A stretch of DNA of 38,166 nt from Candidatus Woesearchaeota archaeon (GTDB taxonomy: Archaea > Nanobdellota > Nanobdellia > SCGC-AAA011-G17 > GW2011-AR20): positions 1-38,166 of the forward strand of contig JAGVZQ010000005.1 of the NCBI GenBank assembly GCA_018302465.1, given 5' to 3'. Position numbers and translations under genes: made by a program. Positions 5,890 to 10,474 of the stretch are shown one piece after another; the stretch's first letter is position 1, and every line of letters begins with the position of its first letter. The notes beneath the pieces were generated by a model. It searched no databases, was not told where the DNA came from, and saw only the letters and a program-made list of their open reading frames with translations.

Positions 5890-6207
5890 CTAAATCTCCC
5901 CAAGTATCTTATCCATTGCCCTGCTCATAGCAAAAAACAGGTTAAAATCAGTTACCTCTGCATTATAAGCCTGCCCGTTTGCTGCAAGCTTTGCCTGAAT
6001 CTCAAACTCAGAGTTATGCACTGTTTTAAGATGGACTGAAACTTTCTCAAAATTCTGCACTCTATCTTCCATCTTTTTAACATAATTACCTATTATTTTC
6101 TTCACAACAACCATCTTTCCAGGCTCTACACTATTAAAACCAGAAAGAGTGATTTTCCCCCCAAGCTCAATATTTCCTGTGCTTTGCTCATTCATTCCTT
6201 CAGCCAT
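5890..6207 (-). CDS. Conserved-looking small protein with an HPF/RaiA-like pattern
   Basis: The 105-residue product is not assigned by a clear motif. From residue 18 its pattern is strand, long helix (VVVKKIIGNYVKKMEDRV), two strands with alternating residues (FEKVSVHLKTVHN, FEIQAKLAANGQAYNAEVTD), then a helix (LFFAMSRAMDKILGEI). This is the beta-alpha-beta-beta-beta-alpha order of HPF/RaiA ribosome-hibernation factors, down to the AE-x-T-D-x-x-x-A-x-x-x-A-x-D-K-(I/L) ending. The gene precedes the eL21 unit. An SD-like AAGGGGGT precedes the ATG. An alternative start four codons in is possible. The ribosome role is inference. Confidence 0.65.
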   Translation of the reverse strand: MAEGMNEQSTGNIELGGKITLSGFNSVEPGKMVVVKKIIGNYVKKMEDRVQNFEKVSVHLKTVHNSEFEIQAKLAANGQAYNAEVTDFNLFFAMSRAMDKILGEI

Positions 6208-6329
6208 TTCTATACCCCCTTACTAAATAATCAAAGAACAAGCTTAAATAAAAAGTTTTCTATTATTGCGTTGTAAAGTTAAAAGTAAATCGTTTTTCAA
6301 GGCATCACAACTAAAAGAAAAACAGAAAG

Positions 6330-6381
6330 ATTTATAAACACTTGTTATATAATTATATCAAATGTTACAAAATTATAACAA
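6330..6381 (+). promoter_or_regulatory. Promoter and possible operator of the MNT/HEPN unit
   Basis: A TATA element, TTTATAAAC (6331-6339), lies about 26 bases before the ATG at 6362. Exact 8-base inverted arms, TTGTTATA (6342-6349) and TATAACAA (6374-6381), flank the start region and could be an operator for the HTH domain of the first gene. The arms are AT-rich, so the match may be chance. Confidence 0.45.
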
Positions 6382-6886
6382 ATACAAATTACTGAAAATA
6401 TTCCTGGAAAACCCAACAGAAAGTTTTAGGTTAAGAGAGTTATCAAGATTATCTAAGATCTCACCTCCTTCTGTGTTAAATTACTTAAAGGAATTTGAAA
6501 AAGAAGGTTTAATTGAAAGATACGAAAAAAGAGAAGTTCCATTTTACAAAGCTGAATTAGACAATGAAGACTTTAGAGAGTACAAAAAAATAAGTATATT
6601 GTTTGAGCTTCACGATTCTGGCCTGATAACTTTTTTATGGGAAAACATTTCTCCAGAAGCAATTATCCTCTATGGAAGCCAGATAAAAGGCGAATCGACA
6701 GAAAGTTCTGACATAGATCTCTTTATAATAGGAAAAGAAAAAAATATCAATATTGAAAAATTTGAAAAAAAACTTGGGAGAGAGATCCATATAATTTTTG
6801 AAGAGAATCCTAAAAATATTCCAAAAGAACTTAAAAATAATTTAATTAATGGGATAGTGTTAAAAGGATATCTGAATTTATTTTAA
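6362..6886 (+). CDS. Winged-helix plus minimal nucleotidyltransferase (MNT) protein
   Basis: The 174-residue product fuses an N-terminal winged helix (about 8-60, with LRELSRLSKISPPSVLNYLKEFEKEGLIER) to a minimal nucleotidyltransferase domain (about 97-170). The MNT core GS-X10-DXD is present as G105-S106 and D117, D119. In type VII toxin-antitoxin systems, MNT antitoxins AMPylate the partner HEPN toxin. The next gene, one base downstream, is a HEPN-like candidate. The fused DNA-binding domain suggests that this protein also controls the operon. Domain calls are strong; the toxin-antitoxin role is inferred from the pairing. Confidence 0.85.
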   Translation: MLQNYNKYKLLKIFLENPTESFRLRELSRLSKISPPSVLNYLKEFEKEGLIERYEKREVPFYKAELDNEDFREYKKISILFELHDSGLITFLWENISPEAIILYGSQIKGESTESSDIDLFIIGKEKNINIEKFEKKLGREIHIIFEENPKNIPKELKNNLINGIVLKGYLNLF

Positions 6887-6887
6887 A

Positions 6888-7280
6888 ATGATCAAAAAAG
6901 TGTTTAAGGATAAAGAGAAAGTAAAATCATTGTTAAAACTTATAGAAGAAAGAGAGAAATTTCTGGAGCTTGACATAAAATTTCCAACAATAATTGTTGA
7001 AACTTACTATGAAATAATCAAAGAACTTTCAGTAGCATCTTTATTGTTGGATGGATTAAAGGCTATAGGAGAAGATGCTCATAAAGAGATGCTGGATTAT
7101 CTGATAAATTATAATGAGTTCTCAGCTTCAGATGTAGTGCTTTTACAGGACTTAAGGAAAAAAAGAAATAAAAGCATGTATGAGGGAAAACAAATAGAGC
7201 CTAATTACCTCGAAAATAAAGAACAAAACTTTAAAAAAATAATTAGCAAGCTAAAAAACAACATAAAAACTAGATTATAA
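6888..7280 (+). CDS. HEPN-like protein, partner of the MNT gene
   Basis: The 130-residue all-helical product has the HEPN layout. Its last long helix pair carries LRKKRNKSMYEG (about 106-117), which corresponds to the family RN-x-x-x-(H)Y signature. The His of the usual R-X4-6-H ribonuclease motif is replaced by Met, with Tyr kept. HEPN proteins next to MNT genes are RNA-targeting toxins or structural partners. The lost His makes an inactive or altered nuclease possible. Its stop codon overlaps the remnant of the elp3 3' end on the opposite strand. Confidence 0.75.
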   Translation: MIKKVFKDKEKVKSLLKLIEEREKFLELDIKFPTIIVETYYEIIKELSVASLLLDGLKAIGEDAHKEMLDYLINYNEFSASDVVLLQDLRKKRNKSMYEGKQIEPNYLENKEQNFKKIISKLKNNIKTRL

Positions 7281-7337
7281 CTCCTTGCTCATATAAGGTC
7301 CTTCTCTTTCATACCCTAATTTCTCAAAATACAGTCC
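7275..7337 (-). pseudogene. Displaced 3' end of elp3 (orphan C-terminal exon remnant)
   Basis: On the minus strand this stretch encodes GLYFEKLGYEREGPYMSKEL followed by a stop codon, and a stop codon lies directly upstream in frame. It aligns with the C terminus of the Elp3 encoded at 8471-10093 (EYFRKFDYQNEGPYMMKTL), with 11 of 19 aligned residues identical. Its ending closely follows the usual archaeal Elp3 C terminus. It therefore looks like the original end of elp3, now separated from the gene by the homing endonuclease. The DNA of the two copies is only partly similar, so this is not a recent duplication. Confidence 0.85.
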
Positions 7338-7385
7338 CTAATCTATATTTTCAACTCACTAGTCCACCGGACAACCCCTCGCACT

Positions 7386-7396
7386 AGATTTATAAG
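7386..7396 (+). promoter_or_regulatory. TATA element of the homing endonuclease gene
   Basis: AGATTTATAAG is centred about 26 bases before the ATG at 7418, which predicts a leaderless transcript and indicates that the endonuclease has its own promoter. Confidence 0.6.
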
Positions 7397-7417
7397 TAAA
7401 ATTAGTAAAATTAATTT

Positions 7418-8497
7418 ATGTATCACAAAATTCATTGGTGGAATTTTCCAGAAGATATTCGCATTTTGATAGATGATAAGGGGTATAGAAAGTCTATTTT
7501 CAGAGAAACAAGCGCAAAAATAGCCAAAAAGCTAGGGGTATCACGTACATGGTTGGTTCACTGGAGAATTGGGAAAAAAGGCAAATCCTGTTATATTCCA
7601 GTAAGTAAATTAAAAAAACTACATGAGATATACAAAATTCCTAAAAGTAAGACAGAAAATTTTATTACATCATATCGTACCTCTTGTGGTAAATGCATAG
7701 ATAATCCTATTTTACCAATTTTAGAGTCTCCTGAACTTTTCCAAATAATCGGTCACTTATATGGAGATGGATCGGTCACGAAAGATAAATATTCATCTAG
7801 CTATTGTAATACTTCTAATGAAACTAGAGCAAATATTAGACATATGATCCATTTAGTCTTTGGTAAGGCAGAATTAAAAGAATACCATAAGAGTCACATA
7901 ATAAAAATACCAAGTGCCATTTCTAAGATAGTAATGTACCATTATAAAATAGATACCTTTTATACTTTTTCTTCAAAGATACCTGAGCAAATCATAAAAA
8001 AAGAACCTTCATTAGTAAAAGGGATTATAAAAGCATTCATAATTGATGAAGGGTCTATTAAAGACAGCAATATTGATATCTATTCTGCAAATTTGAATCT
8101 TATGAAGGACTTACAAAATATTTGTTTAAAATTAAATTACAATCATAGTCCAATTAAAAGAGGATCTGGTTGTTTCTATTTCAAGATATATGCAGAGTCC
8201 ATTAAGAAAATAGCTAAAGACTTAATTCCATTACCTCATACAAAGAAAAATGAACAACTACTTTTTATTATAAAAAAACAAAAGAGAAGTTGGAACCATA
8301 AAAATGTAGGACGCACAAAAAAAGATATATTGGAATTACTATCAAAAAAGTCAATGACTGCATATGAACTTGGCTTAAAATTATTAATATCTTCAAAAAC
8401 AATAAGGGAACACCATCTTAAAAAATTAGAAAAAGAAGGCAAAGTTATAAAAAATGGAACACAAAGAAAATTAATCTGGTCGCTTAGTAAGTTCTAA
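7418..8497 (+). CDS. Free-standing LAGLIDADG homing endonuclease with flanking HTH domains
   Basis: LAGLIDADG enzymes cut long DNA sites and copy their own gene into them by repair. The 359-residue product has both motifs: IIGHLYGDG (about 110-118, acidic D117) and IIKAFIIDEG (about 203-212, acidic D210). These mark a single-chain two-repeat enzyme. Residues 31-78 (SAKIAKKLGVSRTWLVHW) form an HTH often seen in archaeal and intein-derived endonucleases. Residues 300-356 form a second, winged-helix-like domain (YELGLKLLISSKTIREHHLKKLEKEGKV). No intein splicing motifs or intron structure are seen. The gene converges on elp3 and overlaps its 3' end by 27 bases, while the old elp3 end lies on its other side. 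Confidence 0.9.
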   Translation: MYHKIHWWNFPEDIRILIDDKGYRKSIFRETSAKIAKKLGVSRTWLVHWRIGKKGKSCYIPVSKLKKLHEIYKIPKSKTENFITSYRTSCGKCIDNPILPILESPELFQIIGHLYGDGSVTKDKYSSSYCNTSNETRANIRHMIHLVFGKAELKEYHKSHIIKIPSAISKIVMYHYKIDTFYTFSSKIPEQIIKKEPSLVKGIIKAFIIDEGSIKDSNIDIYSANLNLMKDLQNICLKLNYNHSPIKRGSGCFYFKIYAESIKKIAKDLIPLPHTKKNEQLLFIIKKQKRSWNHKNVGRTKKDILELLSKKSMTAYELGLKLLISSKTIREHHLKKLEKEGKVIKNGTQRKLIWSLSKF

Positions 8498-10093
8498 AGT
8501 TTTCATCATATATGGACCTTCGTTCTGATAGTCGAATTTTCTAAAATATTCTTTTGCCCCTATTCCTGAAATAACTATCATTTTATTTTTTCTGAACTCA
8601 CTTTTAGAAATTTCTTCAGCTTTCTTTAATAATTTTTTCCCCAAACCCCTATGCTGAACATCTCCCTTCTCTCCAATTGCAGCAGCAGTTCCATAAACAT
8701 GCATCTCTCTAACAACAGCGGTATTCTCATTAATCTCTTCTCTAAAAGATTCTTCAGGTATTCTCAATCTCAAAAATCCTAAAATTATATCATTTTTAAC
8801 ATCTTCAAAACTCAAAAATATCTCTTTTCCCTCACAATTATCATAATCAATCCTGTTTAATTTAACATTAGCCCAATTAACTGTTTTATTCATTGGCTCC
8901 CTGCATCTTATACAATCGCATTTAACATTCTCTTTTTTCATTTTCTCATGGATTATTTGTCTCAAGTTAGTTCTATCTACACCAGCTTCTCTCCTATAGG
9001 TAGGAATATCTCTCTGCACCCTCATAACCCTACAATACTTTGGAATATATTTTTTCATTTCAACAATTCTTAAAGCAGCTTCTTCAGTTGTAACAGGCTC
9101 AAAATCTCCCCTTTCCCATATCCTATACAACGGAGTATTCTTAAAAACCATGCAAGGGTAAATCTTCAAAGCATCCGGTTGATAATCTTTATTAGAAAAC
9201 AATTCTTTAAACATTTCAATATCTTCTTCCCTAGAAACACTAGGCAATCCAACCATCCAATGAAATCCAACTTTATACCCCGAATTTTTTAATAATTTTA
9301 TAGCTTTTTTAGTATCTTCTAAATTATGCCCCCTATTAATAAATTTCAAAACATCATCTTTTAATGTCTGAACTCCCAATTCAACTCTGGTAACTCCCTG
9401 TTCTAACATAATGTTTATTTCATTCTCAAAACACCAATCAGGTTTTGTCTCTACCACAATAACCAAGCACCTTATCCTAGCTTTCTCATTTCTTTCCTGC
9501 TCTTTCTCTAATGTGCTTTCTTTTTTATACTCTAATAATTTCTTTTTAATTCTCTCAACTCTTTCATTATTTTTAAAATCTCCAGGCAATTCAAAAAATT
9601 TCATAAATTTCTCTCTGTCAAACTCTCCTTCAAGAAATAATTCAGAAAAATCATTCATAGCCTGTAAGGCTTCTTTAATAAACTCATTCTGATATTCAAC
9701 ATCAAATGAAGGAAAAGTCCCACCCATTATTATTAGTTCAATTTTATCCACTTTCTTCCTTAAAGCATAATATTGCTCTAACCTATTCATAACTTGCAAA
9801 TAAGCGTTATATTCATTTCTTATAGCCCTCATAGAAGCAGGCTCTTTTCCAGTATAAGACATAGCAACTCCCTCTTTTATGTAATCAGGGCACATTATAC
9901 ATGCTCCATGCTTGCATCTTATTGGTTTACTCATTATAGCAACAGGAGCAACTCCAGACATGGTCCTTATTGGTTTTATGCTTAAATTATTATCAATTTC
10001 TTCAAAATTAACCTCAAAATTCCTTGGAATGCTCTTTAATCCATATTTCTTAGATAGCTTGATTTTAAGGTTATTTAGCTTTATATTGTCCAT
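8471..10093 (-). CDS. elp3: Elp3: tRNA U34 carboxymethyltransferase (radical SAM / acetyltransferase)
   Basis: Archaeal Elp3 uses radical SAM chemistry and acetyl-CoA to form the carboxymethyl group on wobble uridine of tRNA. The 540-residue product has the 4Fe-4S triad C60, C65 and C68 (CKHGACIMCPD). A TIM-barrel radical SAM core follows (about 55-380), with ELGVQTLKDDVLKFINRGH and VGFHWMVGLP, and then a zinc-type cluster (CDCIRCRE, about 410). A C-terminal GNAT domain (about 420-530) includes HRGLGKKLLKKAEEIS. The C terminus is unusual: after GPYMMKTL, where relatives stop, it runs on for seven residues. This tail appears to be a replacement brought by the adjacent endonuclease gene. Confidence 0.96.
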   Translation of the reverse strand: MDNIKLNNLKIKLSKKYGLKSIPRNFEVNFEEIDNNLSIKPIRTMSGVAPVAIMSKPIRCKHGACIMCPDYIKEGVAMSYTGKEPASMRAIRNEYNAYLQVMNRLEQYYALRKKVDKIELIIMGGTFPSFDVEYQNEFIKEALQAMNDFSELFLEGEFDREKFMKFFELPGDFKNNERVERIKKKLLEYKKESTLEKEQERNEKARIRCLVIVVETKPDWCFENEINIMLEQGVTRVELGVQTLKDDVLKFINRGHNLEDTKKAIKLLKNSGYKVGFHWMVGLPSVSREEDIEMFKELFSNKDYQPDALKIYPCMVFKNTPLYRIWERGDFEPVTTEEAALRIVEMKKYIPKYCRVMRVQRDIPTYRREAGVDRTNLRQIIHEKMKKENVKCDCIRCREPMNKTVNWANVKLNRIDYDNCEGKEIFLSFEDVKNDIILGFLRLRIPEESFREEINENTAVVREMHVYGTAAAIGEKGDVQHRGLGKKLLKKAEEISKSEFRKNKMIVISGIGAKEYFRKFDYQNEGPYMMKTLELTKRPD

Positions 10094-10135
10094 AAACAGG
10101 CTAAAATTTATTGTTTTATAAAGCTAATCATAAAG

Positions 10136-10145
10136 CTTATAAGTA
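10136..10145 (+). promoter_or_regulatory. TATA element for the 10166 gene
   Basis: CTTATAAGTA is centred about 25 bases upstream of the ATG at 10166, consistent with a leaderless transcript. The start of elp3 is divergent at 10093, so this 70-base gap serves both genes. Confidence 0.5.
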
Positions 10146-10165
10146 GGAATCTTTGAATTATTTTT

Positions 10166-10474
10166 ATGACAGAAATCACCGAATTTAGAAATGAATTAAT
10201 AAGAAGATTAACTAGTTCATTAAGCGCAGTTTTGCCTGGAAATAAGTTTATTCCAGTTGTAATAACCAGCGAAAGAAGAGGGGTCATAAAATTAGCTGAA
10301 GGAGAGGAAGGCATAGAAGATCATATCCCCGTGGTTTTATTTGATATAGGGAATAGAGTTTACAGAGTTTTTCCTATTGCAACAGGGTGTTCTCCAGAAA
10401 AAGAAAGAGTATATTCAGCATCACTACCTTTAATTGAACAGGATTTAACCTCTCAGGGATACCGTCAATTTTAA
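10166..10474 (+). CDS. Hypothetical protein upstream of the thermosome
   Basis: The 102-residue product is not recognised. It has an amphipathic N-terminal helix (EFRNELIRRLTSSLSAVL), then alternating strands (KFIPVVITSERRGVIKLA, IPVVLFDIGNRVYRVFPIA) and a C-terminal helix. This is a compact alpha/beta pattern. A single Cys is present and there is no membrane segment. The TATA position and clean coding pattern support the gene. It ends 26 bases before the thermosome gene on the same strand, but that gene could have its own promoter. The function is unknown. Confidence 0.7.
   Translation: MTEITEFRNELIRRLTSSLSAVLPGNKFIPVVITSERRGVIKLAEGEEGIEDHIPVVLFDIGNRVYRVFPIATGCSPEKERVYSASLPLIEQDLTSQGYRQF

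Follow-up and report, generated by a model that had tools for sequence, protein, structure and literature searches.

A free-standing LAGLIDADG homing endonuclease gene at the 3' end of elp3 in a Woesearchaeota archaeon probably brings a replacement for the gene end that it displaces

Integrative elements that insert at the 3' ends of tRNA genes supply the gene end that they overwrite. In the mitochondria of Glomus sp. (atp6, atp9, cox2 and nad3), and earlier in Allomyces macrogynus atp6, mobile open reading frames (mORFs; ORF, open reading frame) encoding endonucleases replace the C-terminus of a protein gene and leave the native one downstream (PMC3630166). The free-standing endonucleases of phage T4 (seg, mob) carry out intronless homing, with cleavage at a distance from the insertion site (PMC2988022). 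Described here is a locus of Candidatus Woesearchaeota archaeon (GenBank assembly GCA_018302465.1, contig JAGVZQ010000005.1, positions 1 to 38,166 of the forward strand; this whole stretch of 38,166 nt is called the window) at which elp3 shares its 3'-terminal 27 bp with a predicted free-standing LAGLIDADG homing endonuclease gene, beyond which lies a second, displaced elp3 end. This homing element very probably persists in a core protein gene by bringing with it a replacement for the gene end that it interrupts, its cleavage and mobility being predicted from sequence comparison.

Unlike the elements at tRNA ends, which have an integrase and near-identical att repeats, the elp3 case lacks an integrase and its gene ends are diverged. 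The locus does not fit an integrase-type element: the two elp3 ends are identical at 36 of 54 nt, and no integrase was found among the window ORFs. As in the fungal mORFs, an endonuclease ORF (there mostly LAGLIDADG) stands near the 3' end of a gene, a foreign C-terminus diverged from the native one would be in frame with the host gene (PMC3630166), and the native C-terminus is displaced beyond the endonuclease ORF, with the uninterrupted allele present in close relatives. Unlike the mORFs, the element is on an archaeal chromosome, gene 5' ends are used too, the host genes serve tRNA modification, tRNA splicing, DNA repair and metabolism, and in the 3'-end cases other than that of genome G075 the endonuclease gene runs opposite to the host gene and overlaps it with its 3' end. 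An mORF carries its endonuclease ORF in the direction of the host gene; the two share a strand in G075 and run in opposite directions in the window, and for this reason the window element is said to work like the mORFs and is not classed as a member. With T4 seg and mob it shares a free-standing position beside conserved genes, ORF overlaps and co-conversion of flanks (PMC2988022); unlike here, no displaced gene end appears in that account, in which Aeh1 nrdA is split without a replacement end. The synthetic home-and-rescue drive HomeR (PMC7968924) likewise occupies an essential gene, whose end it rebuilds with a diverged sequence; HomeR is engineered and CRISPR-based, whereas the elp3 element is natural and would act by the process proposed below. 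The first-pass annotation of this DNA, made from the sequence alone, had called it unusual for a free-standing LAGLIDADG gene at the end of a protein gene to supply that end. Fungal mitochondria provide a precedent (PMC3630166); no report of such end replacement in archaea or at gene 5' ends was found in the literature, of which coverage was incomplete. The principle is already known; the archaeal, chromosomal, mostly opposite-strand form at both 5' and 3' gene ends is new.

The TIGR01211 match of the current elp3 (614 bits) covers residues 3-533 of 540, and the C-terminus of the protein overruns the family end, as the first-pass annotation had noted, by seven residues (ELTKRPD). The codons for these residues and the elp3 stop (8471-8494) lie inside the plus-strand endonuclease ORF, and the 27-bp overlap of the two genes on opposite strands (8471-8497) was confirmed. 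The current tail reads KEYFRKFDYQNEGPYMMKTL. Beyond the endonuclease gene, on the minus strand from 7337 to 7275, lies the remnant GLYFEKLGYEREGPYMSKEL followed by a stop codon, which overlaps the stop of the HEPN-like gene; its counterpart within the current elp3 is 8495-8548. An in-frame TAG occurs just upstream of the remnant, which is thus not translated as part of elp3. With a profile built from 75 Elp3 C-termini, the remnant left out, it was detected at E=6e-6 among 18,766 six-frame segments, and with a 28-column Elp3 C-terminal profile at E=1.8e-8 genome-wide. A second elp3 end at 7275-7337 had been proposed earlier, to be given up should the segment lack Elp3 profile similarity; the similarity is present, but it begins at the Y codon at 7331 and leaves the GL before it outside the match.

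Window elp3 was compared with that of G047, the congeneric sister of the window's own genome (G000); the genomes compared were mostly draft assemblies. Nucleotide identity was 83% up to about residue 475 and 67% beyond, the strongest break among 12 close elp3 pairs examined, and the tail divergence of this pair gave a residual of z=-3.1 against 400 pairs. The best match of the current tail was a member of family f3 (71%), the nearest tails in its own family (f1) reaching 55-62%. The G047 end was matched at 12 of 18 residues by the remnant and at 9 of 18 by the current tail; over 79 relatives the mean match was 10.9 of 18 for the remnant and 8.6 of 18 for the current tail, in agreement with the earlier claim that the displaced segment fits the family ending better. 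The two window tails are 67% identical to each other. The mosaic elp3 and the remnant matches fit an element that inserted at residue 516, where the YF codons lie, and converted about 40 codons upstream. For elp3 taken alone, the case for this direction of replacement is good but not proven.

An empty site is present in G047, whose elp3 is 82% identical to that of the window and is followed directly by a 105-aa gene (window 5890-6207), with neither the endonuclease gene nor the MNT/HEPN gene pair; homology of the window to G047 resumes at ~6264. Gene order is the same in G042, a member of the same family, in which elp3 again stands directly before the 105-aa gene. Both the endonuclease gene and the MNT/HEPN pair are therefore insertions. 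The latter (~6265-7274), which matches the PADLOC candidate defence pair PDC-M05A/B, sits just behind the stop codon of the elp3 remnant, and no elp3-end repeat flanking it was found in the window. The expectation that HEPN would directly abut elp3 in uninserted relatives failed, since these relatives lack HEPN and the gene is not a native neighbour of elp3. This failure leaves the underlying model of end replacement standing; the proposal that the element inserted in the elp3 C-terminal region with its own diverged end was supported by the empty sites, the mosaic elp3, the remnant and the recurrence at other genes.

In the proposed process, the endonuclease would recognise the conserved codons at the 3' end of an empty elp3 and cut there, and repair from an element-bearing copy would bring in at once both a diverged, functional C-terminus of Elp3 and the endonuclease gene attached to it. 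Conversion would extend ~40 codons upstream of the cut, as the identity break at residue 475 suggests, and the recipient's codons past the cut would remain on the far side, where the untranslated remnant is observed. The new elp3 end would resist recutting because its DNA differs from the target, and the insertion would be tolerated in a core gene because the host gene stays whole. The corresponding anatomy was observed where related endonucleases adjoin endA, nreA and ppsA, at the 3' ends of these genes, and nfo-like and alaX-like genes, at their 5' ends; the same design would operate there.

Table 1. Features of the elp3 locus (window coordinates) and the nfo locus of the same genome
Feature	Position	Strand	Basis or remark
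elp3, full length, 540 aa	8471..10093	-	TIGR01211 match
Free-standing LAGLIDADG homing endonuclease gene (activity predicted), 359 aa	7418..8497	+	motifs, family profile
Displaced original elp3 3' end (probable), GLYFEKLGYEREGPYMSKEL plus stop	7275..7337; homologous part 7278-7331	-	profile matches
Putative elp3 replacement tract, ~residues 475-540	8471..8671	-	identity break vs G047
Spacer, remnant to endonuclease gene	7338..7417	+	TATA-like element ~7389-7396
MNT-type nucleotidyltransferase with helix-turn-helix (HTH)	6362..6886	+	PADLOC PDC-M05A, E=1.8e-16
HEPN-like partner of the nucleotidyltransferase	6888..7280	+	PADLOC PDC-M05B, E=6e-9
105-aa gene, native downstream neighbour of elp3	5890..6207	-	order in G047, G042
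nfo (AP endonuclease-like) locus with endonuclease	L210, G000:C25		window's own genome

For ~40 related endonuclease genes, the end of the adjacent gene was compared with the far side of the endonuclease in 76 tests, with mismatched pairs as the control and host gene families checked with Pfam. Scores of at least 35 were obtained in 8 of the 76 tests (0.8 expected from the control) and scores of at least 49 in 3 (0.03 expected). The displaced ends were those of nreA (score 81, 16 of 25 residues matching), elp3 (63 and 35), the nfo-like gene (49), ppsA (40), the alaX-like gene (38) and endA (37 and 36); the endA, nreA and ppsA ends are 3' ends, and the nfo-like and alaX-like ends are 5' ends. 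By the same comparison no clear remnant was found at ftsY, at rps11 or at three of the five endA loci. Beside the endonuclease at ppsA, an intein-like sequence is held by ppsA itself (L025, 2647-4077, minus strand), which appears from its sequence to hold two kinds of homing element.

The cleanest case is nfo. Its displaced start, MDKLRFGTAGI, is letter for letter the nfo start of the uninserted genomes G047, G041 and G042, and lies 32 bp after the upstream gene, with the spacing found in G042. The current nfo starts KKIDRLRFGTAGI; LRFGTAGI is common to both starts, and five of its eight codons differ synonymously. Because the displaced start is identical to that of uninserted relatives, the direction of the process is fixed at nfo and, to the extent that sequence comparison can establish it, for the mechanism. 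A 38-aa VapB-like antitoxin ORF (L210, 267-383) is located between the displaced nfo start and the endonuclease gene.

Endonucleases that share a host gene across genomes were each other's nearest relatives, with identities of 39-63% at endA (five loci, five families), 55% at ftsY, 56% at rps11, 65% at the alaX-like gene and 42% at the ychF-like gene; identity between different sites was ~25-35%. The endonuclease lineages at elp3 are not closest kin, which indicates that the elp3 end was targeted repeatedly. Of 37 endonuclease 3' ends, 25 overlap the adjacent gene, as against 4 of 39 5' ends, an excess part of which could be ordinary operon overlap. On inspection, the TATA-like element of the window spacer lies ~20 bp upstream of the endonuclease ATG, and a TATA-like box is found ~20-30 bp before the endonuclease ATG at L013, L015, L017, L019, L025 and L029. 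Short tandem motifs precede these boxes, examples being TGTCAAGTATGTCAAG in L019 and TATGTCGAGTATGTCGAG in L025 (host strand), and are possibly autoregulatory sites for the HTH domains of the endonuclease itself.

The 359-aa ORF is, on the evidence of its motifs and family profile, a free-standing LAGLIDADG homing endonuclease gene, with activity predicted. The protein consists of an N-terminal part, two LAGLIDADG motifs (LYGDG around D117 and IIDEG around D210/E211) and a C-terminal winged HTH. In an alignment with 19 relatives (24-38% identity), D117 and D210/E211 are among the best-conserved residues, being invariant or almost so. The family profile matches PI-PfuI (1dq3, E=8.7e-13), PI-PkoII (1.3e-6) and I-DmoI (1.4e-3); the LAGLIDADG assignment was taken from this profile, as for the single protein LAGLIDADG was below the Pfam cut-off and only HTH domains were above it. 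No close relatives were found in GTDB contigs or IMG/VR, and a single-sequence structure model (predicted local distance difference test, pLDDT, 39) was too low in confidence for use. An intein or self-splicing intron was ruled out by the opposite strand and separate start of the gene, by the absence of Rfam matches in 6000-10200 and of any splicing domain detected in the endonuclease by Pfam. Elsewhere in the 0.75-Mb genome G000, LAGLIDADG_3 was matched 21 times, several matches being in ORFs of more than 700 aa that resemble intein-bearing genes.

In a census of second Elp3 tails covering 378 genomes of the class, five genomes (G000, G075, G009, G171 and G346) had such a tail adjacent to elp3, all five with inserted mobile-type genes, or the relic of one, in between. 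The second tails that G008, G053 and G095 carry on separate contigs were taken for contig-edge copies and not counted; extended Elp3 C-termini are also present in G082, G045 and G021. In G075 a different LAGLIDADG gene, on the elp3 strand, has its C-terminus fused in frame to the displaced tail YKYDGVYMSKKL, which ends at a stop codon and is directly followed by the next gene. G009 has, between its current tail and a remnant placed 36 nt before pcm, the decayed C-terminus of an endonuclease (PTCGLA, resembling the L011/L014 clade); elp3 is likewise close upstream of pcm in G008. Endonucleases at other elp3 3' ends, which the first-pass annotation had suggested looking for, are thus represented by G075 and G009, but their lineages are not those closest to the window endonuclease. 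The entire G009 elp3 (L198, 3891-5513) resembles families f18/f48 and not its own family f3, the remnant behind it being f3-like, and from these similarities looks like a whole-gene replacement at the same site.

Nucleotidyltransferase-type elements take the place of the endonuclease at elp3 in G171 (L133, 1769-2943), with a perfect 26-bp repeat of the elp3 3' end, and in G346 (L134, 2174-6294), with a long diverged copy of that end; another is found at nfo in G041 (L207, 2110-3340), with a near-perfect repeat of ~80 bp of the nfo 3' end. The 105-residue remnant of G346 is 67-69% identical to three relatives, to which the current tail is 60-65% identical, and in a tail tree built from residue 428 it groups weakly with two of them, from its own family. 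Such nucleotidyltransferase cassettes with direct repeats form a second class of insertions at gene ends, separate from that of the endonucleases, and no integrase was recognised in them.

Several observations weigh against replacement of the elp3 end by the endonuclease element. The elp3 remnant is 18 codons only, both endA cases are supported by 6-12 residues each, and most endonuclease loci with an adjacent gene have no detectable remnant, so that end replacement may not be universal. The Elp3 tail of G047 is itself unusual and divergent relative to G041 and G042, and recombination in this sister is a possible source of the tail divergence. In the Elp3 tail tree, built from residue 428 onwards, the window was not set apart from its sister, which may be due to the mixture of native and replaced sequence in that segment. 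In G075 it is the fused tail that looks foreign, the current tail being in keeping with the body of its gene, which leaves the direction there unclear. This last case, and a codon comparison in which both window tails are diverged from the sister, would also suit a current elp3 tail that is native, the endonuclease having landed just past its stop with a foreign piece of elp3 attached on the far side. We consider such an origin unlikely, as the identity break at residue 475 falls inside the intact gene, the remnant is the closer match to sister and family, the G009 remnant retains the native spacing to pcm, and the nfo remnant of G000 is identical to uninserted relatives.

A little less likely still is an integrase-like or cassette insertion driven by MNT/HEPN that duplicated the elp3 3' end, with the endonuclease as a passenger or later arrival. 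MNT/HEPN does adjoin the remnant, and MNT-type elements do stand between copies of host 3' ends at elp3 (G171, G346) and nfo (G041); yet the window tails flank the endonuclease and not MNT/HEPN, around which no elp3-end repeat occurs, the tails are diverged and not perfect repeats, and it is the endonuclease that stands between the two ends at endA, nreA, ppsA and alaX, and the endonuclease with the 38-aa antitoxin-like ORF at nfo. Whole-gene replacement of elp3 does occur, as the G009 gene body unlike its family indicates, and a second elp3, either an old tandem copy or one acquired horizontally, might have decayed to a C-terminal scrap beside which the endonuclease lies by coincidence; this is very improbable given that all adjacent second tails in the census flank mobile-type genes or a relic and that the same anatomy is found at several other genes. 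The recurrence across independent assemblies also makes an assembly artefact unlikely.

Replacement of a gene end by the homing element itself would mean that a selfish endonuclease with neither intron nor intein can live in conserved cellular genes by repairing its own damage, and would extend the fungal mitochondrial mechanism to archaeal chromosomes and gene 5' ends. It would account for the mosaic gene termini of these genomes and for the overlaps between their gene ends, provides an annotation signature (a displaced gene end with an overlapping endonuclease), and makes the uninserted elp3, nfo and endA ends predicted targets and a ready test system. We lean, with some reserve, towards a broader view in which Woesearchaeota and related archaea carry a large free-standing LAGLIDADG family that lives by gene-terminus replacement, each clade targeting the conserved codons at the start or the end of a single housekeeping gene, restoring a diverged, cleavage-resistant end and leaving the old end as a scar. 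If true, general terminus replacement of this kind would be nature's equivalent of home-and-rescue gene drives and would supply core genes with foreign ends.

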